IMG/VR virus record: IMGVR_UViG_3300033991_000067
Coordinates: 1 to 30,598 of that record
Reading direction: 5' to 3' (one strand)
From: a virus
DNA length: 30,598 nt
A model generated the notes under the pieces. The model was not told the origin of the DNA. It did not search any database and saw nothing but the letters and a program-made list of their open reading frames with translations. The position numbers and the translations under genes are program-made. Positions 2,890 through 30,598 of the stretch are shown piece after piece (positions within the stretch are counted from its first letter, which is position 1; every line of letters begins with the position of its first letter).

Positions 2890-5322
2890 TTACTTATATT
2901 CTCTTTTTATATTATAAATTCTTCCCCAAGCATCTTGAAAACTAGCATCGTTTAATACACCTTTTTTTACTTCTTCAGCTAATAATTCAGCCATTTCTTC
3001 TAATGTAGGCATTGCACTTAAATCTACATTTACTTGCATATTTTGAGCACCGATATTAGTAACATTTGTTATTGGTTTTATTTCTTCTCTTGGCATTGTT
3101 GGAGTTAATCCAGCAAACTTTCCTAAAGCCCCTAAAGGACTTAATGTAGCGGTTATCTGTGCTTCAGGAAGGTCATATAATCTTTGTATTATTTTACCTA
3201 TTGCATTTTGCCCTTCTTGAGTAAAAGTATTCCAATATTCCATAATTAAATTTTTATCGTAGGCAGAATTTTCAAATGATTGAACTAATTCTTGAGGATT
3301 CATATTTCTTAACTCTAACATTCTTCTTAATTTTGCTCGTTCAAACATATCGGCTTGCTCGTATTTGGTATAAATGTCGGTATATTGTTGCTGTTGTTTT
3401 TGTAAAATTTGTGTTTTTCGTAATTCTATTTGATTAACTTGTTTTGCTAATCCAATTAATTTTTCTTGAACAAAAGGTTGTTGATTGGTAGTTTGTAATA
3501 TTTTTTCCCAATTTTCTGATAAAACATTAGTCAACATTTCTTGCTTACTTAATTGAGGAACTATTCTATTTTGAATTGCATCTAACGAATTATATTGGTC
3601 AACTATTTTGCTTACTTCATTTGCTATTTCTGCAATCAAAATATCTGATTCGCTATAACCTTCATTAATCAATTTCTGGATAGCAATCTGTTCTTGTATA
3701 TCTCTTTTTTGTAACTCTATTTGGCGTAATAAATTAGAATGAACTTTTATTTCTTCCTTCTTTTTTTCAATGTGTTTTTCAGACCAATCCGTAATTGTTT
3801 TTTCTATTTTTGCTTGTACTGCTCCTTCTTTTGCTAATTCTGCTGCTTTGTCAATTAATCTATCGGCTATATCTAACATATATGTATCTTTAGGATACTT
3901 CATTTGAATTCCTGCCGATAATTCTATAGTTTTTGCTACTGATAATTTTCCAGCCAAACCTTCTTCTATGCTATTCCAAAACTCATTTATATCTTTATCT
4001 ATATCAGATATTTGTTTTTTTACTTCTATAATAGGATGTGCAACAAGTCTAAAAAAACTAGCTATGTTATTTCCTGCTTCTAATGCTCTTTTTGCTAATT
4101 CATCCATTACAATATTTAATTGTTTTAATCCTTCTGCAAAATCTTTAGTTCCTAAAGTTCCAGTTATAAACTGCTCAAAAAGTTGAGTTCTTAATTCTCT
4201 AAAAACTTTCAATTGACCGCTTACACTATTTATAACATCTTCTTGCCTTTTTCTATAATCATCCAATACTCCCATCTGGTCTTTATAACCTTTGGTTGAT
4301 ATATTTAAATTTTCTTGTAATTGGTCATATAAAGCTACCAGTGCTTTTATTGGTTCTCCACCTCTTACTCCACCAAAAATAGTAGAAATAATCTCTTGTG
4401 CAGCAGCAGGAAAAGTCTGTGCTTCTGATAATTGTTTAGTAGCACTTAAAACTTTCATCATTACATCAAATGTAGTATCTAATTGTGGATTCACATAAAT
4501 TCCTAAAGAAGAAGCTAATTTATCAGCGTTGTCTATTAATTTGCTAAATGAAGTCCTTAATAATGTTCCTCCTCTTGACCCTAACATAGCTGCACTATTT
4601 AAAGTAGACAATAAAGCGATAGTTTCATCCATAGTGAGATTCATTGTATTTGCTGTTGGCAAAAACGCTCTTAATGATTCGGTTAAATCTCCTGCTTCGC
4701 CAGCATTAACTTGCCATAATTTATACATTTTAGCTAATTGAACTTCCATTGCTTGTTGAGGAGGAATAGTCTGGTCTACTGTATCTCCTAAAATTTTAAA
4801 AGTCATAGCTAAAATCTTTGCTACTTTAGCAGAATCTTCCTGAGTAGCAATTGCAAATCTTGTTGCTGCTTCAGCCCCTTCCCATGCTTTTTGATAATCA
4901 AAACCAATTGTTCCAAATTGATAAAAAGCATTAGCAATTTTAGTCATAGATTCGCCAGTTTCTTGGGCGAGATTTCTTATTCTACTACCTAAATCAGCCA
5001 TTGCCTCACTCATACTACCAGTTACGCCATGAGTTACTGCTTGGGCTTTTAACATAGCAGCATTAAAATCTTCCATATATTTAAAACCTTCTGAAAATCC
5101 TCTCAAAAAAGACATTATTGCTCCTCTTGCAATCATCCATACTGGAGCAACAATAGCGACTCTACGCATAGCTCGTTCAAAATTGCCCATCTTCTTACTG
5201 GCAGTATCTACTTCTTTAGAACCTTTATCCATAGATTTAAAAACCCGTTCTATCTCAGCCTGAGTTTTTCCTGCATTTTTAGCAGAAAAGATAACATCGA
5301 TTAAATGCTGATATGTAGCCAT
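2890..5322 (-). CDS. Tail tape measure protein (TP901-like), 810 aa
   Basis: The longest tail gene before the distal tail proteins. Residues about 85-350 match the conserved core of TP901-type tape measure proteins: an Ala-rich helical region with LRNLAQETGES, FYQFGTIGFDYQKAWEGAEA, a later GSRGGTLLRTSFSKLIDN, and an LNSAAMLG stretch. A long charged, Gln- and Lys-rich helical region (about 400-700) follows, and the C-terminus is hydrophobic and beta-like. Tape measure proteins set tail length and are ejected with the DNA. At roughly 0.15 nm per residue this would predict a tail in the 120 nm range. The start overlaps the stop of the upstream 110-aa gene as TAATG, with GAGGA just upstream, so translation is coupled. 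Confidence 0.92.
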   Translation of the reverse strand: MATYQHLIDVIFSAKNAGKTQAEIERVFKSMDKGSKEVDTASKKMGNFERAMRRVAIVAPVWMIARGAIMSFLRGFSEGFKYMEDFNAAMLKAQAVTHGVTGSMSEAMADLGSRIRNLAQETGESMTKIANAFYQFGTIGFDYQKAWEGAEAATRFAIATQEDSAKVAKILAMTFKILGDTVDQTIPPQQAMEVQLAKMYKLWQVNAGEAGDLTESLRAFLPTANTMNLTMDETIALLSTLNSAAMLGSRGGTLLRTSFSKLIDNADKLASSLGIYVNPQLDTTFDVMMKVLSATKQLSEAQTFPAAAQEIISTIFGGVRGGEPIKALVALYDQLQENLNISTKGYKDQMGVLDDYRKRQEDVINSVSGQLKVFRELRTQLFEQFITGTLGTKDFAEGLKQLNIVMDELAKRALEAGNNIASFFRLVAHPIIEVKKQISDIDKDINEFWNSIEEGLAGKLSVAKTIELSAGIQMKYPKDTYMLDIADRLIDKAAELAKEGAVQAKIEKTITDWSEKHIEKKKEEIKVHSNLLRQIELQKRDIQEQIAIQKLINEGYSESDILIAEIANEVSKIVDQYNSLDAIQNRIVPQLSKQEMLTNVLSENWEKILQTTNQQPFVQEKLIGLAKQVNQIELRKTQILQKQQQQYTDIYTKYEQADMFERAKLRRMLELRNMNPQELVQSFENSAYDKNLIMEYWNTFTQEGQNAIGKIIQRLYDLPEAQITATLSPLGALGKFAGLTPTMPREEIKPITNVTNIGAQNMQVNVDLSAMPTLEEMAELLAEEVKKGVLNDASFQDAWGRIYNIKREYK

Positions 5323-7177: not shown

Positions 7178-9507
7178 TAAGATTCCTTTGTCATTTTATA
7201 AGAAGTACAATTATTACTTACATCATAAACTGCTGTTAATAAATAAGTAGCTATCGGATTTGTGTTCGCATCGCAGTCTGCCTTTGTCGGGTAAATTTTT
7301 GTTGTTGCACTTGTCAATAATCCAGAAGCATTATAAGTTGTTGCTGTTATACGAAAATTTTCTTGTGTTAAACCAAGTATTCTCTTAATTTCTGTATCTA
7401 AATTTGATAAATCTAAACTTATTCCTTCTATTTCAGCAATTATTTCATTCTTATTTGCAGTTGCATTAGTTTCACTTGCTGGGTCATCTGGAAGATTATC
7501 TGTTCTTTCTTTTATTGCATTTATATTAGTAGATAAATCTTTTATTAATTCATTTACTGCAATAATTGACGAATAATAATTACTATTATAGCAAATAGTA
7601 GCATGTAAATAATACACTTCTTGGTCATCTAATTCATCAGGTGTTCTATGAAATAAAAATACACCTTCAGAAGTTGGGGTATTATTTATTGTTGGATGAT
7701 ATTTAGTTACTCCATTGCTATCTTTTAATTCTATTTCACAATTAGTTGGAGTTGTTATTCTTGAACCATTAATTTCTAACCAAGTACAAATAGCTAAAGT
7801 ATTTTCGCAAGTCAATAAACCTACTGATGCTTTACATATTGCTGTCGAAGCATGTTCAGTTAAATTAAGATTTAGGACATGTTCATTAATAACAGATATA
7901 GATTGTTTTTTATCATAATAATCTATCTTTATTAATATTATCTCATAAGTTCCGTATTCCCACGAATAAGAAAAAGGGCTATCATAATAAGCTGGAGGCG
8001 TTCCATCACCAGGGTCAAATAAAAAATTTAATAAATGCTCATCTGTAATACTATCTTTTACATTTATAATTTTTGTATATTTACTTACTACAATATCCAA
8101 ATTGTCTTGATTTGAAATAAATTCTTCATCAGTTATTTTTAAAATGCAGTTTATTGTTCCTATATTATTAAAAGTATATTCATAATTTCTTATGGCTTCT
8201 TGCAAAGTTCCATAACCATTTTTAGGAATTTCAATAAATCCACTTCCTTCTATATCATAATAAGCATGTGCTAATTCAATGTCGCCATTTGGGTCAGAAA
8301 TAGCTGCATCACTAAATGGTTTTATTGTTTGGTGGTCTTTACATGTTTTGTTTGTTCCTGCATAAACATTTGGTGGCTCTCCTATTGTTGCTACAATTTC
8401 GTTGTTATCTAATTCACATTTTTGAGTTCCATTACTTATTAAAAAAGCTCTAAATAATATTTTTTCTGTTATAATGGAAAATGTTTCTATATTTGCACCA
8501 ATTATGATTGAAGAATTATAATGGCTTGAATCCCCACCAGAAATCCAAGCACTACCATTCCAATAATACCATGTTACTCCATCATCATCACTAATATTGT
8601 AACCTATACTTCCTTCATTTCCTACGCCTAAAGTTTCATTAAATGCAAACCAATTAGCTATGCCTATTACTTGCCAAGAGGCATTTGGTCGTATAGTTGG
8701 TTTATCAGAAAAATAATACCAGTTTTCTCTTCCTATTCCAGAATTATATATAAAAGCAATTTCTGCAACAGTTAATACTTTATTATAAATATTACATTCA
8801 TCCAACAATCCACCATAATAATCTCCAACCGCATCTCTTGCACCTAATTGAAAATCATAATTTACTATTATATCTCCTGTGCCTAAAGTATCTTTTATAA
8901 TTGTTAATGATTGTAAAGAATTATCGATATATACCTGAATACCTGAAGCTAAACCATTTCCGTTATATGTAACTACAATATGATGCCATGAATTATCATT
9001 CCATCCTGTTGAGATTGACGTTACATGAATGAATTGATTAGAAGGTACGGAATAAACTAACCGTACTGATATTGAACCATTTGTATTCATTCCAAATGAA
9101 TAACCTGTTTGCGAAGATATAAATCCTTGTTTACCCATCATCATGCCATAAGTACTGGTTGGGCAACCATTTGATGTTTTAAACCAACATGCTAAACTAA
9201 ACGGAGTAGTTTTACTAATCTTAAATATATTACCAAATTCTACGTATTCATTAATTCCATTAAATGACAGACAATTGCCTAACTTTCCACTAACCCAATT
9301 AGAATCATCCATATTAATAGCAGTACCATTTCTACTATTTCCTGATGAATCAGAAACTACAATACCAGAAGATTCGTTTAAATGCCAGCGAGCATATACA
9401 TTAGATAAATTTTCTTTTAAAGTAGCTAAATCTCCGCTAACTTCTATTTTAGCGGAATTATATGTATATTCCGCAGGAGTATTATAGTCATAATGTTTAT
9501 TAGCCAT
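7177..9507 (-). CDS. LamG-domain virion surface protein, 776 aa
   Basis: Starts at ATG 9507 behind AAGAGGAAC. Residues about 38-258 form a laminin-G/concanavalin-like domain: WHLNESSGIVVSDSSGNSRNG, then GKLGNCLSFNGINEYVEFG, WHHIVVTYNG, and DECNIYNKVLTVAEIAFIYN are hallmark segments of LamG_3 domains. Beta-rich Ig- or PKD-like modules follow (for example around ISDPNGDIELAHAYYDIEG). A C-terminal stalk has predicted coil (NELIKDLSTNINAIKERTDN) and an end domain. Such proteins bind glycans or cell surfaces. It follows a BppU-like 109-aa protein and lies between the tail tube and chaperone genes, an unusual place for a fibre. It is probably a side fibre or tail decoration; its paralogue is the fibre at 24467-27421. 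Confidence 0.8.
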   Translation of the reverse strand: MANKHYDYNTPAEYTYNSAKIEVSGDLATLKENLSNVYARWHLNESSGIVVSDSSGNSRNGTAINMDDSNWVSGKLGNCLSFNGINEYVEFGNIFKISKTTPFSLACWFKTSNGCPTSTYGMMMGKQGFISSQTGYSFGMNTNGSISVRLVYSVPSNQFIHVTSISTGWNDNSWHHIVVTYNGNGLASGIQVYIDNSLQSLTIIKDTLGTGDIIVNYDFQLGARDAVGDYYGGLLDECNIYNKVLTVAEIAFIYNSGIGRENWYYFSDKPTIRPNASWQVIGIANWFAFNETLGVGNEGSIGYNISDDDGVTWYYWNGSAWISGGDSSHYNSSIIIGANIETFSIITEKILFRAFLISNGTQKCELDNNEIVATIGEPPNVYAGTNKTCKDHQTIKPFSDAAISDPNGDIELAHAYYDIEGSGFIEIPKNGYGTLQEAIRNYEYTFNNIGTINCILKITDEEFISNQDNLDIVVSKYTKIINVKDSITDEHLLNFLFDPGDGTPPAYYDSPFSYSWEYGTYEIILIKIDYYDKKQSISVINEHVLNLNLTEHASTAICKASVGLLTCENTLAICTWLEINGSRITTPTNCEIELKDSNGVTKYHPTINNTPTSEGVFLFHRTPDELDDQEVYYLHATICYNSNYYSSIIAVNELIKDLSTNINAIKERTDNLPDDPASETNATANKNEIIAEIEGISLDLSNLDTEIKRILGLTQENFRITATTYNASGLLTSATTKIYPTKADCDANTNPIATYLLTAVYDVSNNCTSYKMTKES

Positions 9508-9521
9508 TTTTGTTCCTCTTT

Positions 9522-9851
9522 TTATTTAGTTAATGCCTGAATTAAATTTAATGAAAAAGTAGTACTTTTGTCTATTTCACCTGTTGTAAAAATAGTTTTT
9601 AATTCCAGGTTATAAGAACCAGCAGCCTGATTTAGATTTGTTGAAGTTAGGGTTACTTTTACAATTCCTGAAACCACTAAAGTTTTATCAAAATCTGTAT
9701 CTGTTTTAGTAATTACTGCTGTGCCACCTGAGTCTTTGACTACTAAAGAAAATGTAGCCCCTGTTAAATTGATAATAGTTCCTGAAGCATCTTTAAAAGT
9801 AAACGAAAGTACTTTTTGTTCCTGAGTTTTTAATGTAATATCATTTGCCAT
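9522..9851 (-). CDS. BppU N-terminal-like small virion protein, 109 aa
   Basis: Starts at ATG 9851 behind AAGGAG. It begins MANDITLKTQEQKVLSFTFK and has the pattern INLTGATFSLVVKDSGGTAV ... GSYNLELKTIF ... FSLNLIQALTK. This is the usual layout of BppU N-terminal-like domains, which anchor receptor-binding proteins to a baseplate or tail: a strand, the phrase LTGATxxxxVKD, a strand with YNLEL, and a closing strand. The protein at 28575-28967 has the same layout (VDITGATVTMLIKN ... GNYLYEIQIEM). It directly precedes the LamG gene at 7177-9507 and may form its attachment site. The family assignment is from pattern memory and should be read as probable. Confidence 0.65.
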   Translation of the reverse strand: MANDITLKTQEQKVLSFTFKDASGTIINLTGATFSLVVKDSGGTAVITKTDTDFDKTLVVSGIVKVTLTSTNLNQAAGSYNLELKTIFTTGEIDKSTTFSLNLIQALTK

Positions 9852-9862
9852 TTTTTATCTCC

Positions 9863-10087
9863 TTAATCTTGTACAGTTACATTTGGCTGGTCTAAAATAA
9901 CTTCAATATCTTCCTGACCAGCTTCTATATTTATATTCTCTTGTTCAATTACAATATCTAAAGTTTCATCTTCTACTAAAACTTCAATAATCTTTTCTCC
10001 ATAATCTATAGTAATTTCAAAAGGAAGATAATAATTTATATCTTCTGCTGAAATAAATCCTTTTGTTAAAAGTGAAATTGGAATCAT
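9863..10087 (-). CDS. Small acidic protein, 74 aa
   Basis: I choose ATG 10087 because AGGAGT lies just upstream; a longer frame beginning at 10111 would start inside the U-tract side of a terminator and is rejected. The protein begins MIPISLLTKGFISAEDINYY and is strongly acidic, with alternating hydrophobic residues (EKIIEVLVEDETLDIVIEQE), so it is probably a small beta-sandwich. It opens the BppU-like/LamG surface-protein cassette and is preceded by an intrinsic terminator that leaves no room for a promoter. Family not recognised; a virion role is inferred from context. Confidence 0.7.
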   Translation of the reverse strand: MIPISLLTKGFISAEDINYYLPFEITIDYGEKIIEVLVEDETLDIVIEQENINIEAGQEDIEVILDQPNVTVQD

Positions 10088-10097
10088 TTTACTCCTA

Positions 10098-10130
10098 ATA
10101 AAAAAGCCCAATCTAAGTAAGATAGGGCTT
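10098..10130 (-). terminator. Intrinsic terminator inside the operon (attenuator candidate)
   Basis: On the minus strand AAGCCC-U-AUCU-UACUU-AGAU-U-GGGCUU forms a stem of 6 + 4 pairs around a single U-U mismatch and a 5-base loop. The arms are at 104-109/125-130 and 111-114/120-123 of the 10,000s. It is followed at once by a run of six U. The ribosome binding site of the 74-aa gene begins three bases after the U run, so the downstream genes can only be expressed by read-through. Confidence 0.8.
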
Positions 10131-10187
10131 AATTTTTTTATAAAAAATAGTTACCTTACCTTACCGATTAAAAATATTACTTACTTA

Positions 10188-10856
10188 TCAAAATTTTATT
10201 TTTTCCGAATAAAAATTATACCAATAATTTCTGTTTGAATTACTTTTAGCATGGCAGTTTCTACAAAGACTAATTAAATTATTAAAATCAGTATTTCTCT
10301 TATTATAGTCTATATGATGAACATCCAATTGCCTTCCATTTTCTAACTGAGAACAACCGCATAATTGACATTTATAATGGTCTCTAAATCTAACTTGTTC
10401 TTTTAAAGAAGAATCAAATTCATCACCATATTCCATGAGATTTCTATCTTCTATCCAATTCCAATGTAATTTTCCTTTTCGAGAACAAGACTTGCATCGT
10501 AGAAATCTTGGATATATTTCTGTTCCACAATCTATACAATAGTATTTTTTTCTGCCTTTTTTATGGGAGCAAGATTTGCATTTTTTAGCATCCCATCTTT
10601 TTATTTCTTTTCCACAATCAGGGCAATAACGAGGATTAATACTGATGCCATTTATGTAATGACATGCTTTTTTACCTATATATTTACCTTTTAAAGATTC
10701 TGCGGTAGTTCTTATTTTAATATTGTATTTTTTTAAATAACGATAAACAGCAGCAAAAGAACGATTCAATTTAGTAGCAATTTCTTTACCTGTTTTCTTA
10801 TTAATGGAATATTCTTTAATAAGATATTCCTTTTCTATTATTTTTGCTTTGCTCAT
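10188..10856 (-). CDS. HTH / double zinc-ribbon / HNH homing endonuclease, 222 aa
   Basis: Residues about 8-50 form a helix-turn-helix (TGKEIATKLNRSFAAVYRYL). Two zinc ribbons follow: C78/C81 with C93/C96, and C107/C110 with C121/C124. The C-terminal HNH domain has C163/C166, then H180-H181-I-D in LDVHHIDYNKRN, N193, and C198xxC201-H202 (LCRNCHAKSN). Domain order and size are those of free-standing phage HNH endonucleases. It starts at ATG 10856 with no visible ribosome binding site: the preceding bases are an A-run and the foot of a stable hairpin behind the tail tube gene. It ends at TGA 10188, about 100 bases before the next gene; that gap holds a triple GGTAA repeat (10151-10165 on the complement) and a terminator. 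Confidence 0.9.
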   Translation of the reverse strand: MSKAKIIEKEYLIKEYSINKKTGKEIATKLNRSFAAVYRYLKKYNIKIRTTAESLKGKYIGKKACHYINGISINPRYCPDCGKEIKRWDAKKCKSCSHKKGRKKYYCIDCGTEIYPRFLRCKSCSRKGKLHWNWIEDRNLMEYGDEFDSSLKEQVRFRDHYKCQLCGCSQLENGRQLDVHHIDYNKRNTDFNNLISLCRNCHAKSNSNRNYWYNFYSEKIKF

Positions 10857-12146: not shown

Positions 12147-12953
12147 TTATGACTTTTTAGCCTCTTCAATAGGTTCAGTTTTTGGTAATTTCTCTTCTTC
12201 TCTAAGAAGAAACCAACTGATATAGTCATTTACTCTATTTATCCTTACTAAATATAAGTATGCTTCTTGGTGCAATTTGTTATGTATTTTTTTATCTTTT
12301 AAATACATAAAATTATCTTCATTATTGTTTTCTCTACTACAATCAATATGATGCACCACCTTACCGTCGATTTTATCTTTTGTATCGACAATTTCATATT
12401 TCAAACAAAAATCTTTTAAATAATCATAAATTAATCCTATTTCAACTAAATATTCGTATCCTCGCCAATGTAAACTTCTATGTTTTCCTTGAGCAATTTT
12501 CAAAAAATTCGATTCTTTATTATTTTTTTTGTTTCCATCTATATGATGTTTAATTGTTATATTTTTGTTAGTATCTCCTGTCCAATACGGTTTAAAATTC
12601 TGTTTTCTTTGCGAACAAGATTTACATAATCCAGATTTACTGCTTCTGGTAATTTCATTTCCACATTTACAAAAATATTTTTTAGAATTTTGTTTCCTTA
12701 TAAATTTATAACAATTTATACAGTATTTTGATTTATAAAAAGTTAATTTTCCGCAAATTAAACAATTGTTTCTTGTAGTTATTTTTTTAAACCATCCTAA
12801 TTCATGTATTTTATCATAAATTGTATGATTACTTATTTTCAATAATTTAGCAATTTTAGTTGGTGAAATTTTTTGTATAACATATAAATCGTAAAGATTT
12901 TTTATATCAACTTTCAAAGAACAAAATCTACCTAATTTATCTCGTTTTTTCAT
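12147..12953 (-). CDS. Tandem-HNH homing endonuclease with HTH and zinc ribbons, 268 aa
   Basis: Residues about 18-58 form an HTH (ISPTKIAKLLKISNHTIYDK). Zinc ribbons follow at C64/C67 with C78/C81, and C95/C97 with C110/C113. Two copies of an HNH module then occur in tandem. Module 1 (about 134-186) has KHHIDGNKKNNKESNFLKI and HRSLHWRGYEYLV. Module 2 (about 198-251) has VHHIDCSRENNNEDNFMYL and HNKLHQEAYLYLV. Both keep the HHID, the central N and the terminal H, so both could be active. The gene starts two bases after the stop of the 70-aa gene, with only a weak GGAA upstream, and ends 27 bases before the tail tube start. Confidence 0.85.
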   Translation of the reverse strand: MKKRDKLGRFCSLKVDIKNLYDLYVIQKISPTKIAKLLKISNHTIYDKIHELGWFKKITTRNNCLICGKLTFYKSKYCINCYKFIRKQNSKKYFCKCGNEITRSSKSGLCKSCSQRKQNFKPYWTGDTNKNITIKHHIDGNKKNNKESNFLKIAQGKHRSLHWRGYEYLVEIGLIYDYLKDFCLKYEIVDTKDKIDGKVVHHIDCSRENNNEDNFMYLKDKKIHNKLHQEAYLYLVRINRVNDYISWFLLREEEKLPKTEPIEEAKKS

Positions 12954-14204: not shown

Positions 14205-14591
14205 TTATGTATTTATTACTTTTTTCTCTAAAATTACTACTAAATAATCTTGTCGAGAAAGTATTCCAAATCCTTTTTGGTCATCTTTGTAACATTTGAA
14301 ATATTCTTCTCCGATTTTTATTCTATCGGCAGCTTTAATTGTATTGATATGTCTTTTTTCTATAATAATTTCTTTTGAGCCAATGGGGATATTTCCATAA
14401 TAAGCCCACTTTAATGCTTCTACAGATACATCTCTCACTAAAGCATCTATAGCGATAGGTTGTATAAAATTTTTTTCAGTTGTCCGTTCATACGGGTCAG
14501 TTAATACGCTCTGGGCGTTATATAATAAAATCTTTTGTAACTTATTTTCTTGTCTTAATATATTAAAAATATTAATTCGTTTATCTGGCAT
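14205..14591 (-). CDS. Head closure (stopper-like) protein candidate, 128 aa
   Basis: The start at ATG 14591 lies inside the last codons of the HNH gene upstream, and the ribosome binding site TTGGAG is also inside that gene, so the endonuclease now supplies its translation signals. The protein begins MPDKRINIFNILRQENKLQK and has a beta-rich C-terminal half (KEIIIEKRHINTIKAADRIK, EEYFKCYKDDQKGFG, DYLVVILEKK). The layout, a strand-rich barrel with an exposed IGEEYFKC strand, is as in small head-closure proteins. The position between the connector and gp10-like genes supports that. Confidence 0.6.
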   Translation of the reverse strand: MPDKRINIFNILRQENKLQKILLYNAQSVLTDPYERTTEKNFIQPIAIDALVRDVSVEALKWAYYGNIPIGSKEIIIEKRHINTIKAADRIKIGEEYFKCYKDDQKGFGILSRQDYLVVILEKKVINT

Positions 14592-15474
14592 TTACTTTCT
14601 CCAAAAGTTTAGTTTTGTATAATTTCTGCCAATAATCTCTGTTTTTATTCGCCCTTAAATTACATTGTTTACAGAGCGTAATTAAATTATTTTCAACACA
14701 ATTTTTCTTATTATAATCAATGTGATGAACTTCTAAAACATTACCAATTACTATTAAATGTTCTTCTTCAGTCATAGAGCAATTCTGACAAGTATAATTG
14801 TCTCGTTTGCGAATTTGTTCTCTTATCAATCTAAATTCTAAAGGATATGGTTCATAACTTCTTCCATCAATCCAAGAAGGAGCTTTTTCGCCAAATCTAT
14901 GAATTCCATACATAGGATTGTTATCGCCATTAACATCTGCATGATTTTCACTCATTCTTTTTTTTATTTCTTCATTGTCCATTGCTTTTTGTGTTATTAT
15001 ACCTTGTCTTTCTTTTTGTTCTTTAGTCCATTTATGACCATAATTAAAATTATCTGAGCCTAAACATTTTCCTTTTCTTGCTTCTGATAGTTGTTTTCTT
15101 CTTTTATCACTAAAAAATTCTCCTGTATTTGCTTCTTGACTTGTTCTCATTGGTATATTGTATTTTTTTATTCTTCTATAAATTACGCTATTATCTACTT
15201 TCGTTTCTTCTGAAATTTTATTTACTGATTTTTTATTAATTATATATTCAGTATATAAATATTCGTAAGTTAATATATTCTCATATTTTAAATTTCTTTT
15301 TTGTAATTTGGTATTTTCGCTTCTCGTTCTTATTTTAATTCCAAATCTATGTAGATAATTTGTAATGGTTGCTGAACATGTTTTTAATTCTAAAGATATT
15401 ACATAACTAGATTTTAATTCTTTTATATATTTATACATTAATAATTTTTTATCTATATCTACTCTTTTTTCCAT
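14581..15474 (-). CDS. Double-HTH / NUMOD / HNH homing endonuclease, 297 aa
   Basis: Two similar helix-turn-helix units (about 8-50 ending GIKIRTRSEN, and 66-112 ending NIPMRTSQEA) are followed by NUMOD3-like segments (about 120-195: SDKRRKQLSEARKGKCLGSD, GDNNPMYGIH). The HNH domain spans about 217-280, with C229/C232, H250-H251-I-D in LEVHHIDYNKKN, N262 and C268/C271. The last HNH position is Asn 272 (LCKQCNLRAN) where the endonuclease at 10188-10856 has His, a known H-N-N variant. It overlaps the 46-aa gene by 16 bases at its start. Its end overlaps the head-closure gene start by 11 bases. Confidence 0.9.
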   Translation of the reverse strand: MEKRVDIDKKLLMYKYIKELKSSYVISLELKTCSATITNYLHRFGIKIRTRSENTKLQKRNLKYENILTYEYLYTEYIINKKSVNKISEETKVDNSVIYRRIKKYNIPMRTSQEANTGEFFSDKRRKQLSEARKGKCLGSDNFNYGHKWTKEQKERQGIITQKAMDNEEIKKRMSENHADVNGDNNPMYGIHRFGEKAPSWIDGRSYEPYPLEFRLIREQIRKRDNYTCQNCSMTEEEHLIVIGNVLEVHHIDYNKKNCVENNLITLCKQCNLRANKNRDYWQKLYKTKLLEKVNAR

Positions 15475-15600: not shown

Positions 15601-16194
15601 TTAATTGTCCGTTGGTTCTGGTAATTGTTCATCCGTTCCAATATAGGCGATTTGCCCAAAAGTCTTTTTAAATTGCTGTAAGGTTGCCTTGATTTTTTTT
15701 TCTACTGACATATTATCAGTATCAAATACTATAGTAAATTCGGGAGTCCTGTATTGCCGAATATTTCCTTTTATTAAAATTGCAGCAACAATAGATAAAA
15801 GACATTCTTCAGATTCAGAAGGAGTCGGGAAAATTATATTATCAGACTTAGCTGTAAATACTTTATATTTTTCTATAGCAAGATGATAAATTGCATTTCT
15901 TATGTAAGCCCTGAGTTCTGAATCCGAATATTTCTCATAGGCGTTATATTCAAAAGTCAATACATCTCCTGATGTGAGAGTTCCTGTTACTGTAACTTTT
16001 CCTGTCGAAGATGAATAAGAATAATTTGTTCCTGCCCAAATTGTTCCATTCTTTTTTACAATTAATGTAGTAGCATCTATATTAGCATATTGAAGTGTAA
16101 ATATTTTAGACGACCCAAAATACTCCTGAGATTCATTGACGAATTTATATCCATCATCAATTAAATCTCTCAATTTAGAAATTATATTATTCAC
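15601..16194 (-). CDS. Head-tail connector/adaptor protein, 197 aa (GTG start)
   Basis: I choose GTG 16194 because AAAAAGGAG lies 6 bases upstream; a longer open frame to 16299 lies within the endonuclease. The protein begins VNNIISKLRDLIDDGYKFVN. It has a beta-hairpin insertion (TTLIVKKNGTIWAGTNYSYS ... GDVLTFEYNAYE), then helical segments (SDSELRAYIRNAIYHLAIEK and ESEECLLSIVAAILIKG). This is the usual build of connector proteins of the gp6/gp15 type: helical bundle with an inserted beta domain. They sit under the portal as the first neck ring. The last codons of the HNH gene contain both its ribosome binding site and its start. Confidence 0.75.
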   Translation of the reverse strand: MNNIISKLRDLIDDGYKFVNESQEYFGSSKIFTLQYANIDATTLIVKKNGTIWAGTNYSYSSSTGKVTVTGTLTSGDVLTFEYNAYEKYSDSELRAYIRNAIYHLAIEKYKVFTAKSDNIIFPTPSESEECLLSIVAAILIKGNIRQYRTPEFTIVFDTDNMSVEKKIKATLQQFKKTFGQIAYIGTDEQLPEPTDN

Positions 16195-16882
16195 ATTTAT
16201 CTCCTTTTTGTAAATTCTCTTTAGCCCATAATGGTTGTAAATTAGTATAATTAAAGCACTTGCGTTGCTCGCTTGGCTTGCTAAGGTCAAATGAGGCACA
16301 TGGTCGGATATGGTCTATATGCCATTTGCCATAATTAGACCAGGACATATTTGGTTTAAACTTAGATTCGAGATGCTTCTTTAAAAAATCTATAGAACAA
16401 CCAATGAGTTTTATAGTTGAATTAGTCTTTTTATTTTCTTTTAATACTGCCCATATTCTACTTCTTAAATAACTTGTAATCTTATAATTTAAATCATTTC
16501 TTTTCCTAAATCTAACATATTTAACAAGTTTTTTTAATATTATTTCTTTATTTTTTAAATAATACAATTCAGAACTTTTTTTTATTTTATCTTTGTTTAA
16601 TAATCGATATATTTTATTTTTCTCAATAATTAATTTTATATTTTTTTCTCGATATTTTTTCATTCGTTCATAAATCTGTTTTTTATGTGTTTTATAATAT
16701 TTCTCTCCATAATACTTCATATAATCTTTAAAATATTTTTTATGTTTTAATCTATATATTTTACTTAATAACAGATGTCTTTTTTTATTTTTTACATAGT
16801 GTTCTTTTGCACGTTTTAAAATTTTTTCTTTATTCTTTTTATAATATTTCCTTTTATATAATTTCTTTTCTTCTTTATTCAC
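16187..16882 (-). CDS. HNH homing endonuclease with basic repeats (GTG start)
   Basis: A 231-aa protein starting at GTG 16882 behind CAGGAG, with GTGA overlap of the upstream gene stop. Residues 1-120 are an extremely Lys/Tyr/Asn-rich run of imperfect units like YYKKNKEKILKR and KIYRLLNKDKIKK. Residues about 131-223 form the HNH domain: WHIDHIRPCASFDLSKPSEQ (H188, D190, H191), N211, N214, LQPLWAKENL. That domain is nearly identical to the one at 5641-6309. The bases around its start (AGGAGAAAAAGTGAATAA) closely match those around the start of the connector gene that follows (AGGAGATAAATGTGAATAA), forming a flanking direct repeat. Confidence 0.9.
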   Translation of the reverse strand: MNKEEKKLYKRKYYKKNKEKILKRAKEHYVKNKKRHLLLSKIYRLKHKKYFKDYMKYYGEKYYKTHKKQIYERMKKYREKNIKLIIEKNKIYRLLNKDKIKKSSELYYLKNKEIILKKLVKYVRFRKRNDLNYKITSYLRSRIWAVLKENKKTNSTIKLIGCSIDFLKKHLESKFKPNMSWSNYGKWHIDHIRPCASFDLSKPSEQRKCFNYTNLQPLWAKENLQKGDKCE

Positions 16883-27739: not shown

Positions 27740-28573
27740 TTAAATAATTTTTAATTTTTCTAAATCTTTTTTTTCTAAAATATCAATATTAACATTATTA
27801 TATCTTTTTCTGAATTCTTTGAATTTATTTTTAAAAATCTCAGATTTATAACCTTTTATTTCTACATATTTATTTAATTCTGGTAAATAAAAATCTGGTC
27901 TATAAGTTGTTTCTCCTAAATCAAATACTTTGGTTTCGTATTGCCATTTGATACTTTGTCGGTCTAAATATTTAGCATAAGCCACTTCCCAAGATGACCT
28001 CATCATTGTGTTTTTATATCTAACAAAATGAGGTTTTGTTATTTTTCCAAAATTATGATGATGAATTCCTCTATTAAATTTTTTAAAACATTTAAGACAT
28101 CTTTTGGTTTGATATTTCAAATCTATTCCACAATCAATACATTTAAAATAAGAATTCTCTTTATAATTTGGATTATTTGTTCCTATTATTCGTTTACTTT
28201 GTTCTTTAGCATTACATTTTCTACATCGTTTTGAAACTCTGCTAATTAATCTATTGCAGCCTACACATCTATTTTTTTCTTTTAATTTTTTTGAATGTTT
28301 TTTACATTTTTTAGTTCCATAAAACCAAGCATTATAACCTATTTCTTTTTTGCACTCTAAACAAAAATGTTTTTCCGAACATCTTCCATCTTTAAAATTA
28401 GGGGCATTTTTGCCTCTATGATATTCTTTATGTTCTTGATAATGTTTCTTTATTGAGCAAGAATGACATCTTAAACTTCTTGGGTCACTAACTAATTTTT
28501 CACAATCTAAACATTTATGTTTATGTTTCTCTCTGTATTTTTTTAAATATTCAGAATAATCTTTTTTATTCAT
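27740..28573 (-). CDS. Multi-zinc-ribbon PD-(D/E)XK homing endonuclease-like protein, 277 aa
   Basis: Four Cys-rich zinc ribbons precede the nuclease domain: C21/C24 with C36/C39; C71/C74 with C90; C103/C106 with C117/C120; C145/C148 with C159/C162. The C-terminal nuclease has E196 in RSSWEVAYAKYL, D227 in TYRPDFYLPE and E238-x-K240 in YVEIKGY, a PD-(D/E)XK arrangement closely similar to the protein at 1723-2457. It starts at TAATATG, where TAA is the stop of the BppU-like gene, with no good ribosome binding site, and ends 13 bases before the 81-aa gene, leaving that gene's own AAAGGAG intact. Probably a free-standing homing endonuclease. Confidence 0.85.
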   Translation of the reverse strand: MNKKDYSEYLKKYREKHKHKCLDCEKLVSDPRSLRCHSCSIKKHYQEHKEYHRGKNAPNFKDGRCSEKHFCLECKKEIGYNAWFYGTKKCKKHSKKLKEKNRCVGCNRLISRVSKRCRKCNAKEQSKRIIGTNNPNYKENSYFKCIDCGIDLKYQTKRCLKCFKKFNRGIHHHNFGKITKPHFVRYKNTMMRSSWEVAYAKYLDRQSIKWQYETKVFDLGETTYRPDFYLPELNKYVEIKGYKSEIFKNKFKEFRKRYNNVNIDILEKKDLEKLKII

Positions 28574-28574
28574 A

Positions 28575-28967
28575 TTAACTTGTTATTCCAATTATATTTC
28601 TTTGAAAACAAATAGTGCCTTCTAATAATTTATAAACTTTTTCATCTGTCATTTCTATCTGAATTTCGTATAAATAATTGCCAATCAAATCTGCACAATC
28701 ATCTGGTTCAATTTCTAAATCAAATTCGCCAGAAGTAGGAAAATCAAAAGAAGTAACTGTTTTAGTTAAAACAGCCGAAGCATCTGTATCTGTTGCCAAA
28801 TTTTTTATTAACATAGTAACTGTTGCCCCAGTTATATCTACTCCCTGGAGTTCTTCATCTTGGCAAATTATATTTAGTATATTAGTCGCATTTGAAATAA
28901 GAACCAAATCTTGATTTACTACTGCTTGTTCTAATGTTTCATCTGAAATTGTGCAATATAATTTCAT
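28575..28967 (-). CDS. BppU N-terminal-like virion protein, 130 aa; first gene of the late operon
   Basis: I choose ATG 28967 because TTTAGGAG lies 10 bases upstream; a longer frame to 29015 would begin inside the terminator and is rejected. The protein begins MKLYCTISDETLEQAVVNQD. It then follows the BppU-like layout with GVDITGATVTMLIKNLATDT, a strand in FDLEIEPDDCADLIGNYLYE, and a closing EGTICFQRNI. It resembles the 109-aa protein at 9522-9851. BppU-like domains attach receptor-binding proteins to the tail or baseplate; here the fibre at 24467-27421 is the likely partner. It is the first gene after the structured RNA and terminator. Confidence 0.7.
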   Translation of the reverse strand: MKLYCTISDETLEQAVVNQDLVLISNATNILNIICQDEELQGVDITGATVTMLIKNLATDTDASAVLTKTVTSFDFPTSGEFDLEIEPDDCADLIGNYLYEIQIEMTDEKVYKLLEGTICFQRNIIGITS

Positions 28968-29002
28968 TGAATTTTTTCTCCTAAATTTTTTTAATAGTTT
29001 AT

Positions 29003-29053
29003 AAAAAAAGCCCAAATTAAAGATAAAACATCATCATCTTCAACTTGAGCTTT
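29003..29053 (-). terminator. Intrinsic terminator upstream of the first late gene
   Basis: On the minus strand AAAGCUCAA (29053-29045) pairs with UUGGGCUUU (29015-29007) with one G-U. An inner stem AAGAU/AUCUU lies in the loop (29040-29036 with 29024-29020), and a run of seven or more U follows. Only about 23 bases separate it from the AGGAG of the BppU-like gene. It may end the RNA described at 29003-29296, or act as an attenuator on the late operon. Confidence 0.75.
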
Positions 29054-29296
29054 AAATTTTTGGTGAGTAGCCCCCGCATACGCAGTGGCTACCCTTATGT
29101 TCCTGGCTTATAAACCCAGGTATGAAACAATAACCTTTTCTAAGCCTCTCAGAGCCATCAACTCAGTCAACGCCCTTTTGAGGAAGTCAGAAAAGGTGCA
29201 AGTATATTATTTATAAAGACTTAGAGCAAGATTCGCTGTGTACCCTTTCTTTCCCGACATTCGGTAATACTGGCATTAAAGCATCAATTGCCCCTA
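29003..29296 (-). ncRNA. Candidate structured noncoding or leader RNA, family not recognised
   Basis: No gene in either strand. Read on the minus strand from about 29296, consecutive strong hairpins are found. First comes GGCAAUU/AAUGCC with one bulge (29292-29272), then CCGA-AUG-UCGG (29264-29254). Third is a long helix, ACCUUUUCU (29197-29189) with AGAAAAGGU (29141-29133), extended inward by about six more pairs around two mismatches. Fourth is UAUUGUU/AACAUA plus CCUGG/CCAGG (29132-29096). Fifth is GUAGCC-CUGC-GUAU-GCGG-GGCUAC (29092-29067), with one A-G mismatch. The terminator follows. A TATATA or TAGTAT box at 29295-29303 is a weak promoter candidate. Local GC is visibly higher than the AT-rich surroundings. 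No tRNA T-loop, no recognised riboswitch core. Confidence 0.5.
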
Positions 29297-29515
29297 TATA
29301 CTAATAGATAAATTTTCTTCATTTTTAGTAAATTATTTTTTCTTCTTATCCATCTTATTATCAATAAGTTATGAAAACTCAAAAAAATACTTTGATTAAT
29401 TCATTTTTAAGGGGGGCGAAATAGCCTAAATTTGTTAATATAATACCTTTATTTTACTTTCTTACCAATCGAATGTTAGATTTTTAAGAAAAAAAATTTC
29501 CTTAACACTACTTTT

Positions 29516-29544
29516 AATCTCTCTCTTAACAATCTCTCTCTTAA
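29516..29544. repeat. Tandem CT-rich direct repeat (2 x 14 bases, period 15)
   Basis: AATCTCTCTCTTAA occurs twice in tandem at 29516-29529 and 29531-29544. It could be a paired protein-binding site; no function can be read from the sequence alone. Confidence 0.8.
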
Positions 29545-29556
29545 TAAATACATAAC

Positions 29557-29716
29557 GTATTACATAGTAATACTAGTAAGTAACGTAGTTACTTACGTAA
29601 CTACTAGTTTATATTAAATACTAAGTATTTAATAAGCGTAAATCTAAAAAACAGATTTACTTATACCATTTTTTCATTGATTTTCTTCTTCAGAGTAGCT
29701 TACTCAGGGAAGAAAA
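29557..29716. repeat. Chain of five consecutive hairpins
   Basis: In order on the plus strand: GTATTAC-ATA-GTAATAC (29557-29573); ACTAGTA ... TACTAGT (29572-29608), containing AAGTAAC-GTA-GTTACTT; TATTAAATACT-A-AGTATTTAATA (29612-29634); GTAAATCT ... AGATTTAC (29638-29660); and TTTTCTTC ... GAGTA-GCT-TACTC ... GAAGAAAA (29681-29716). All of the stems are perfect. They could be protein-binding palindromes, secondary-structure origin elements, or part of a larger transcript. Confidence 0.85.
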
Positions 29717-29778
29717 AACAAAATAATGATATAGTCCTTTGTGTTGGGGGTAGGGGGCATTTCACCACGCCACCTCAA

Positions 29779-29812
29779 TTCTACGTTTCTTAGAAACTAA
29801 TTTAAAGTAGAA
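29779..29812. repeat. Nested hairpin bordering the GGTAGA cluster
   Basis: TTCTAC (29779-29784) pairs with GTAGAA (29807-29812) and encloses GTTTCT-T-AGAAAC. The outer arms are themselves copies of the TTCTAC/GTAGAA repeat, so it belongs to the same repeat family. Confidence 0.7.
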
Positions 29813-29835
29813 ATTTGGTAGATTACCTTAAAATT

Positions 29836-29841
29836 ATTATA
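29836..29841 (-). promoter_or_regulatory. Possible minus-strand promoter -10 box TATAAT
   Basis: The minus strand reads TTCTACCTTATT, seven bases, AATGGGTTATAAT, leftwards into the late operon. The same two blocks recur around 30019-30064. No good -35 box; the TTCTACC block may serve as an activator box instead. Promoter status is a guess from the consensus -10. Confidence 0.35.
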
Positions 29842-30018
29842 ACCCATTGATATTCAATAAGGTAGAATTATAGTAGATAACTAAGTAGAAAAAGGTAGAT
29901 TTGTAATTTACCTAAAGAGTAAAATGGGTAGATATGGGTAGAAAGTATAATTTACTACTTTGGTAAAAAATAACTTGCTTATATAATAGGGTAGAAACGC
30001 AGGTAGAAGCAAAAGTAG

Positions 30019-30024
30019 ATTATA
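30019..30024 (-). promoter_or_regulatory. Possible minus-strand promoter -10 box TATAAT (second copy)
   Basis: AATGGGTTATAAT lies 28 bases downstream of TTCTACC on the minus strand, a repeat of the arrangement at 29836. A third TTATAAT, with an extended TGT before it, occurs at 30226-30231. Confidence 0.35.
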
Positions 30025-30077
30025 ACCCATTATCCTATATATAGTTAAATAAGGTAGAAACTCATATTTCTACCCAT

Positions 30078-30104
30078 GAAGCGATTAGGATGATTAATTG
30101 CTTC
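30078..30104. repeat. 10-pair hairpin GAAGCGATTA/TAATTGCTTC
   Basis: Stem of ten pairs with one G-T position and a 7-base loop, directly right of the last GGTAGA copies. A second hairpin TCAGAAA/TTTCTGA follows at 30112-30137. Confidence 0.65.
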
Positions 30105-30273
30105 AAATTAGTCAGAAAAACTATATATTATTTCTGATAAAAGGCGACTTAAAATAAAATAAGAAGATAGACCCAATTCATATAGTATCTTTGCTAAAAA
30201 GAACAATAATCTCATTTCTGTTAAGATTATAACATTTTTGTTAATTTACCAAAATGTATCCGAATTGGCTTAT

Positions 30274-30488
30274 TTTTGCTCCCGACGACTTATATCATAT
30301 TTTTATTGTAAGTATAATAATTATAAGAGATTATATTAGAAAAATAAGAAATTAAGAATTCTCCGAATAATCAAAAATAAGAGAAAATCAGTATAGGCGG
30401 AATTTTTTTATTTAAGTTATTGTAAGTAAAGAAGATAAATTGGGCGAAATCGGTAGAAAGATATAGTCGGGTATCGTCGAGCAAAAAA
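30274..30488. repeat. Imperfect inverted repeat pair with GATATA and AGCAAAAA ends
   Basis: The complement of 30274-30296 reads GATATAAGTCGTCGGG then AGCAAAA. The plus strand at 30460-30488 reads GATATAGTCGGG, TATCGTCG, AGCAAAAAA. Both arms start with GATATA and end with AGCAAAAA around a CGTCG-containing core; about 165 bases separate them. TATTTTTGCT also occurs as a direct repeat at 30271 and 30492. Confidence 0.6.
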
Positions 30489-30534
30489 GGGTATTTTTGC
30501 TAAACCGAACCCCGCTCCATTGTTATAACTAATT

Positions 30535-30598
30535 GATTTATAATGATTTATAATCATTTTAAGGCATTAGATTTTATAATTTACTATTATAAGTAAAT
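30535..30598. repeat. Direct repeat GATTTATAAT x2 and terminal hairpin
   Basis: GATTTATAAT is repeated in tandem at 30535-30554, giving two plus-strand TATAAT boxes, and ATTTACT/AGTAAAT (30579-30598) forms a hairpin ending at the window edge. A rightward promoter is possible but no -35 box is clear. Confidence 0.4.

Follow-up and report, generated by a model that had tools for sequence, protein, structure and literature searches.

We identified, at the start of a phage's late operon, a structured noncoding leader RNA in which at least two hairpins resemble, in both sequence and structure, small RNAs encoded in bacteria next to DUF3800 genes, and we judge the chances to be evenly balanced that with this leader the phage encodes an array that mimics these host DUF3800-linked hairpin RNAs. 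Three hairpin types (A, B and C) were distinguished: as far as sequence can tell, the identities of A and C appear well supported and that of B moderately so. The window, i.e. the whole stretch of DNA that was analysed, contains C and A, the phage L002 contains B and A, and L005 contains B.

The window is a linear virus record of 30,598 bases and a fragment, so that part of the genome is missing. All its large genes lie on the minus strand, and the operon runs in the order 130-aa first gene, HNH-type nuclease, fibre, terminase, portal-like protein with a ChaB domain and tape measure, the terminase and portal labels being derived from size, order and sequence features and not from a family hit. 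The fibre, terminase, portal-like and tape-measure genes downstream bear out the late operon of which an earlier note on this DNA had spoken. The first operon gene (28575-28967, minus strand; PHROG 1084, of unknown function) begins with an ATG at 28967, has an AGGAG site ahead of it, and has homologues after the leader in L002 and L005. Five genes (10188-10856, 12147-12953, 14581-15474, 16187-16882 and 27740-28573) have matches to families of HNH, endonuclease VII-like or other endonucleases; for a stretch of 30 kb, this is a large number of probable homing nucleases. Upstream of the leader, 29300-30598 is about 1.3 kb of noncoding DNA with dense GGTAGA-type repeats; the motif GGGG..TTTAGCAAAA is repeated in this zone of the window, L002, L005 and L006, and is perhaps an origin or packaging signal.

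The leader lies at 29003-29296 on the minus strand, its 5' end being putative, and no good promoter stands out directly 5' of it. The minus strand of 28985-29310 folds at -103.4 kcal/mol, against -74.1 +/- 4.9 kcal/mol for shuffled sequences (z = -5.96; a stability matched by 0/100 shuffles), and no ORF of at least 50 aa was found within 29003-29296, in agreement with the structured RNA that the earlier note had placed there. The higher GC described by the same note was also recovered, the leader being the peak of GC (0.30-0.43) and of stability (z -3.2 to -5.5) in sliding 150-nt windows; three further 150-nt windows of the upstream noncoding stretch also had z < -3. The intrinsic terminator that had been proposed was located by fold and sequence at 29053-29003 (minus strand), as a long hairpin followed by U7, and is conserved in L005, with AAAGCTCAAG..TTTGGGCTTTTTTT common to both. 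An outer stem, CCUUUUCU../AGAAAAGG, is predicted around hairpin C (29133-29197, minus strand); its CCTTTTCTGACTT..GAAAAGGTTAT is common to the window, in which it presents C, and to L005, in which it presents B.

Against Rfam, the leader gave chance matches only, at gathering as well as at permissive thresholds. No covariance model of GOLLD, ROOL or 6S matched, and these proposed identities were abandoned; group I intron, tmRNA, tRNA-like and RNase P identities were dropped as well, and the leader does not demonstrably resemble put.

Relatives of the phage were found with the terminase as query (L002 at 70 % identity, L005 at 61 % and the distant L006 at 36 %); a direct scan with the first gene found none, and the terminase alignment had no match in bacterial genomes. 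No counterpart was found among INPHARED known phages. In L002 (about 4291-4640) and L005 (about 1240-1675), a search in related phages such as had been suggested from the sequence alone found a structured RNA kept at the equivalent place, ahead of the first-gene homologue, with one extra gene between in L002; the placement of both counterparts is by synteny. Hairpin A is common to the window and L002 at an equivalent place, GGAYTGGGGATNCCTGGTCGACT is common to L002 and L005, and L006 has no recognisable A, B or C. Two further features of these relatives were observed. The L005 terminase (7822-10560, 912 aa) has an intein-like insert of ~375 aa relative to its relatives, and an HNH-type ORF lies directly upstream of the leader RNA in L002 (3771-4300), with an in-frame TAG after which the HNH-like reading continues (TNL*PLWAKDNLIKSN), i.e. 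it is decayed or read through.

The position at the operon head, the terminator kept in L005 and the strong, near-consensus sigma-70 promoter directly before the L005 RNA (TTGACA-16-TATACT) would also suit a cis-acting late leader, in which RNA and terminator gate the entry of polymerase by the logic of lambda tR' or HK022 put, and in which the likeness to DUF3800 RNAs would be inherited raw material with no role in trans. We consider this unlikely, since what phages share with bacteria is the DUF3800 hairpins and not the terminator context, since in the unrelated phage L004 hairpin A stands by itself, flanked by two structural genes, and since no terminator is clear in L002. The earlier note had offered either a small trans-acting RNA or a leader that decides passage into the late genes; a structured RNA ended by a terminator was retained from both, and the trans-acting reading appears the better of the two. 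A cis-regulatory role can nevertheless be compatible with mimicry.

Hairpin A (GGGUAGCC-A-CUGC-GUAU-GCGG-G-GGCUACUC; 29065-29094, minus strand) has pair probabilities of 0.96-1.00. It had been described as a 10-pair stem with a GUAU tetraloop; the hairpin stands, but its pairs are 8+4, with a conserved A/G mismatch between them. The query motif GGNNNN-CACTGC-NN-ATGCGGGGG-NNNN-C recovered L002 and L004, and a wider pattern, blind to neighbouring genes, found 36 stretches in 85,000 bacterial and archaeal genomes. When uninterrupted pairing of the outer stem was required, at least 8 pairs were present in four bacterial and three phage cases and at most 4 in the rest; weak matches in GC-rich coding sequence were thrown out at this step. 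At all four bacterial loci retained (L036, L042, L049 and L056, with 8 to 10 pairs), the hairpin abuts the 3' end of a DUF3800 gene and lies on the strand opposite to that gene, in convergent orientation, and it is directly preceded by a promoter in L042, L049 and L036.

In the alignment, type A is an 8-pair stem around ACUGC(NNAU)GCGGG, with 100 % paired cells and three positions changed on both sides, whereas sliding the partners by one base lowered pairing to ~55 %. The covariation score was reached by 0/500 shuffles (the bacterial-only set was also tested), so that the check for covariation proposed in the earlier note did reveal compensatory changes in this hairpin. The ACTGC strand was taken as the structured strand because G-U pairs occur only there. 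A model search added the loci L071, L072 and L073, the second with an intact DUF3800 gene and the two others apparently with DUF3800 remnants only. Built from bacteria only, the A model (R2) recovered the window (E = 3.6e-10), L002 (9e-12) and L004 (7e-13), with no further matches in 98 kb. Beside DUF3800 loci of this type, L049:3915-6368 resembles an LmuB-like ATPase and L042:3-668 an HKD-domain protein, and these defence-like neighbours are a hint of defence islands.

Hairpin C (AGGGC-GUUGAC-UGA-GUUGAU-(bulged G)-GCUCU; 29151-29176, minus strand) has its twin in the convergent RNA of L161, which has the shape of this hairpin, the middle one in the window: GC-GUYGRC-loop-GYYGAU-bulged G-GC. 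After this structural match, sixty more DUF3800 flanks were retrieved. In L174, L178, L180 and L181, 22/24 bases are identical to the window hairpin and the bulged G is kept, the two differences being one in the loop and one G-U/G-C exchange. The window thus carries the type C pattern, GGGCGUUGACUG.GU.GAUGGCUC with a bulged G, and the next-best site elsewhere in it has 10 mismatches. Five exact copies of C were found in 285 Omnitrophota genomes, four of them abutting DUF3800; these four loci count as one clade because their DUF3800 proteins are 80-93 % identical.

Type B was first noticed as the core of the L002 and L005 leaders and was later met beside Omnitrophota DUF3800 genes, when Omnitrophota were searched with a DUF3800 alignment and the antisense strand of the 3' flanks was read. 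The bacterial B RNA consists of GGACTGGGGATTCCCGGTCGGC and a terminator hairpin, after a TTGACA..TATAGT-type promoter. Identity to it is 20/22 bases in L002 and 18/22 in L005, against at least 7 mismatches in resampled sequence. With a bacteria-only B model, the L002 and L005 leaders ranked first and second in 98 kb, at weak E-values (0.003 and 0.06). No compensatory changes were found in B, whose stem is too invariant for covariation, and type B was not found in the window.

By gapped BLAST against the flanks, the score of the window leader was reached by 4/300 of its shuffled versions and that of the L002 leader by 0/300, and the L005 leader did not exceed shuffles. The case for the window is therefore based on the E-value of the A model and on the ungapped, structure-matched identity of C, and not on raw similarity. 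The other hairpins of the window and L005 had no match in the sampled DUF3800 flanks. Judging from the hairpins, we infer that the phage host may belong to Omnitrophota or Patescibacteria.

In these two phyla, the DUF3800-RNA unit, present at many DUF3800 genes, comprises a sigma-70 promoter, a short stable hairpin RNA and a terminator, aimed at the 3' end of DUF3800, and the hairpin type differs between DUF3800 subfamilies. Promoters were counted in 123 DUF3800 3' flanks: with no more than one mismatch allowed, one was present in antisense in 38 and in sense in 3; with up to two allowed, the counts were 69 in antisense (i.e. facing the gene) versus 19 in sense. From this antisense excess it follows that DUF3800 is commonly accompanied by a convergent small RNA in the sampled phyla. 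Other convergent DUF3800 RNA families, among them a three-way junction type, were seen at L108, L109, L131 and L132 and at L135, L140-L142, L144, L147 and L152. No PADLOC model matched the DUF3800-sRNA pairs, DUF3800 is not proven to be a defence system, and to our knowledge no function has been established for these pairs. An RNase H fold has been reported for DUF3800 (PMC10910872); in our AlphaFold2 model (pLDDT 74), the best solved matches were RNase H2/HII (E about 2e-4), and DUF3800 is predicted to be RNase H-like.

The phage leader lies beside no DUF3800 gene, and none was found in five phage records (including records of about 30, 51, 42 and 86 kb, all fragments); the phage copies were filed as look-alikes and not as DUF3800 loci because of this absence from the phage contigs. 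Given the incompleteness of these contigs and the RNase H-type appearance of DUF3800, the hairpins might instead be sites that are bound or processed by a DUF3800 protein which the phage itself uses, e.g. in late mRNA maturation, and which is encoded in the missing part of the genome or supplied by the host. We find this distinctly unlikely, as so many kilobases of phage contigs hold no such gene and as a single enzyme would not need hairpins of different subfamilies in one RNA.

Bacterial solo hairpins do exist, with DUF3800 3' remnants at L071 and L073 and, in Omnitrophota, as one solo type C RNA with a promoter and without a DUF3800 gene (L227, around 1521, minus strand), and they would agree with hairpins that are decayed leftovers of DUF3800 elements once inserted in the phage. 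Such an origin seems very improbable to us: no DUF3800 leftover was seen flanking the phage hairpins, the two types stand close together in shared stems, and A is kept at its place in both the window and L002. Two hairpin types of different subfamilies within ~110 bases of one transcript, in the combinations C+A and B+A and without DUF3800, would not be well explained by chance or decay, and an array of mimics is the best explanation for this mixture.

If the leader is such an array, its RNA would accumulate during infection, and its hairpins, presented on the phage's own stems, would displace the cognate RNA by binding to host DUF3800 proteins. Binding might silence a toxic nuclease, in the manner of pseudo-ToxI and ToxN, or might spoil a guide or cofactor by loading DUF3800 with useless RNA, as Racr does with Cas proteins; the late genes would be transcribed when polymerase in part reads through the terminator. 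The resemblance suggests that phages may use RNA decoys against DUF3800 systems. The wider proposition, that the leaders of phages of uncultivated bacteria are composite decoys for several DUF3800 nuclease systems and that DUF3800 with its hairpin RNA forms an unrecognised, widespread antiphage or toxin-antitoxin system under RNA control, we hold more tentatively, at somewhat less than an even chance. DUF3800-linked RNAs have so far been catalogued without a function, and the concentration of several of their hairpin types in DUF3800-free phage leaders provides a functional lead, as there seems to be a reason for phages to produce them; an orphan RNA/protein pair would thereby become a testable host-phage conflict system.

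Several known systems can be set beside this leader. The paper of Weinberg in 2017 is said to be the founding one on DUF3800-associated RNA motifs. Rfam DUF3800-I (RF02969), DUF3800-IX (RF02968) and their sisters are likewise short conserved hairpins adjoining DUF3800 genes; in contrast to them, types A, B and C match no Rfam model (the gathering score of DUF3800-I to XI was not reached) and are present in phages without a DUF3800 gene. HK022 put and the lambda 6S-tR' late leader likewise place a structured RNA and a terminator before an operon, but have no sequence or Rfam link to the window leader, for which an antitermination role is a candidate only. The pseudo-ToxI of phage PhiTE, a phage RNA resembling the antitoxin RNA by which a nuclease toxin of the host is silenced (PMC3475682), shares with the leader its similarity to a host small RNA; ToxI, however, is a repetitive antitoxin RNA, whereas the RNAs beside DUF3800 are single hairpins in convergent orientation and the toxicity of DUF3800 is only presumed. 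Racr are solitary phage copies of a host small-RNA unit; what they imitate are CRISPR repeats, and their targets are Cas proteins (PMC10651486). Phage-encoded solitary units of host small RNAs are common to both cases, with the differences that function is proven for Racr and that here the partner would be DUF3800 and several unit types stand in one transcript, so that multi-target RNA mimicry would be added to the known single-target cases.
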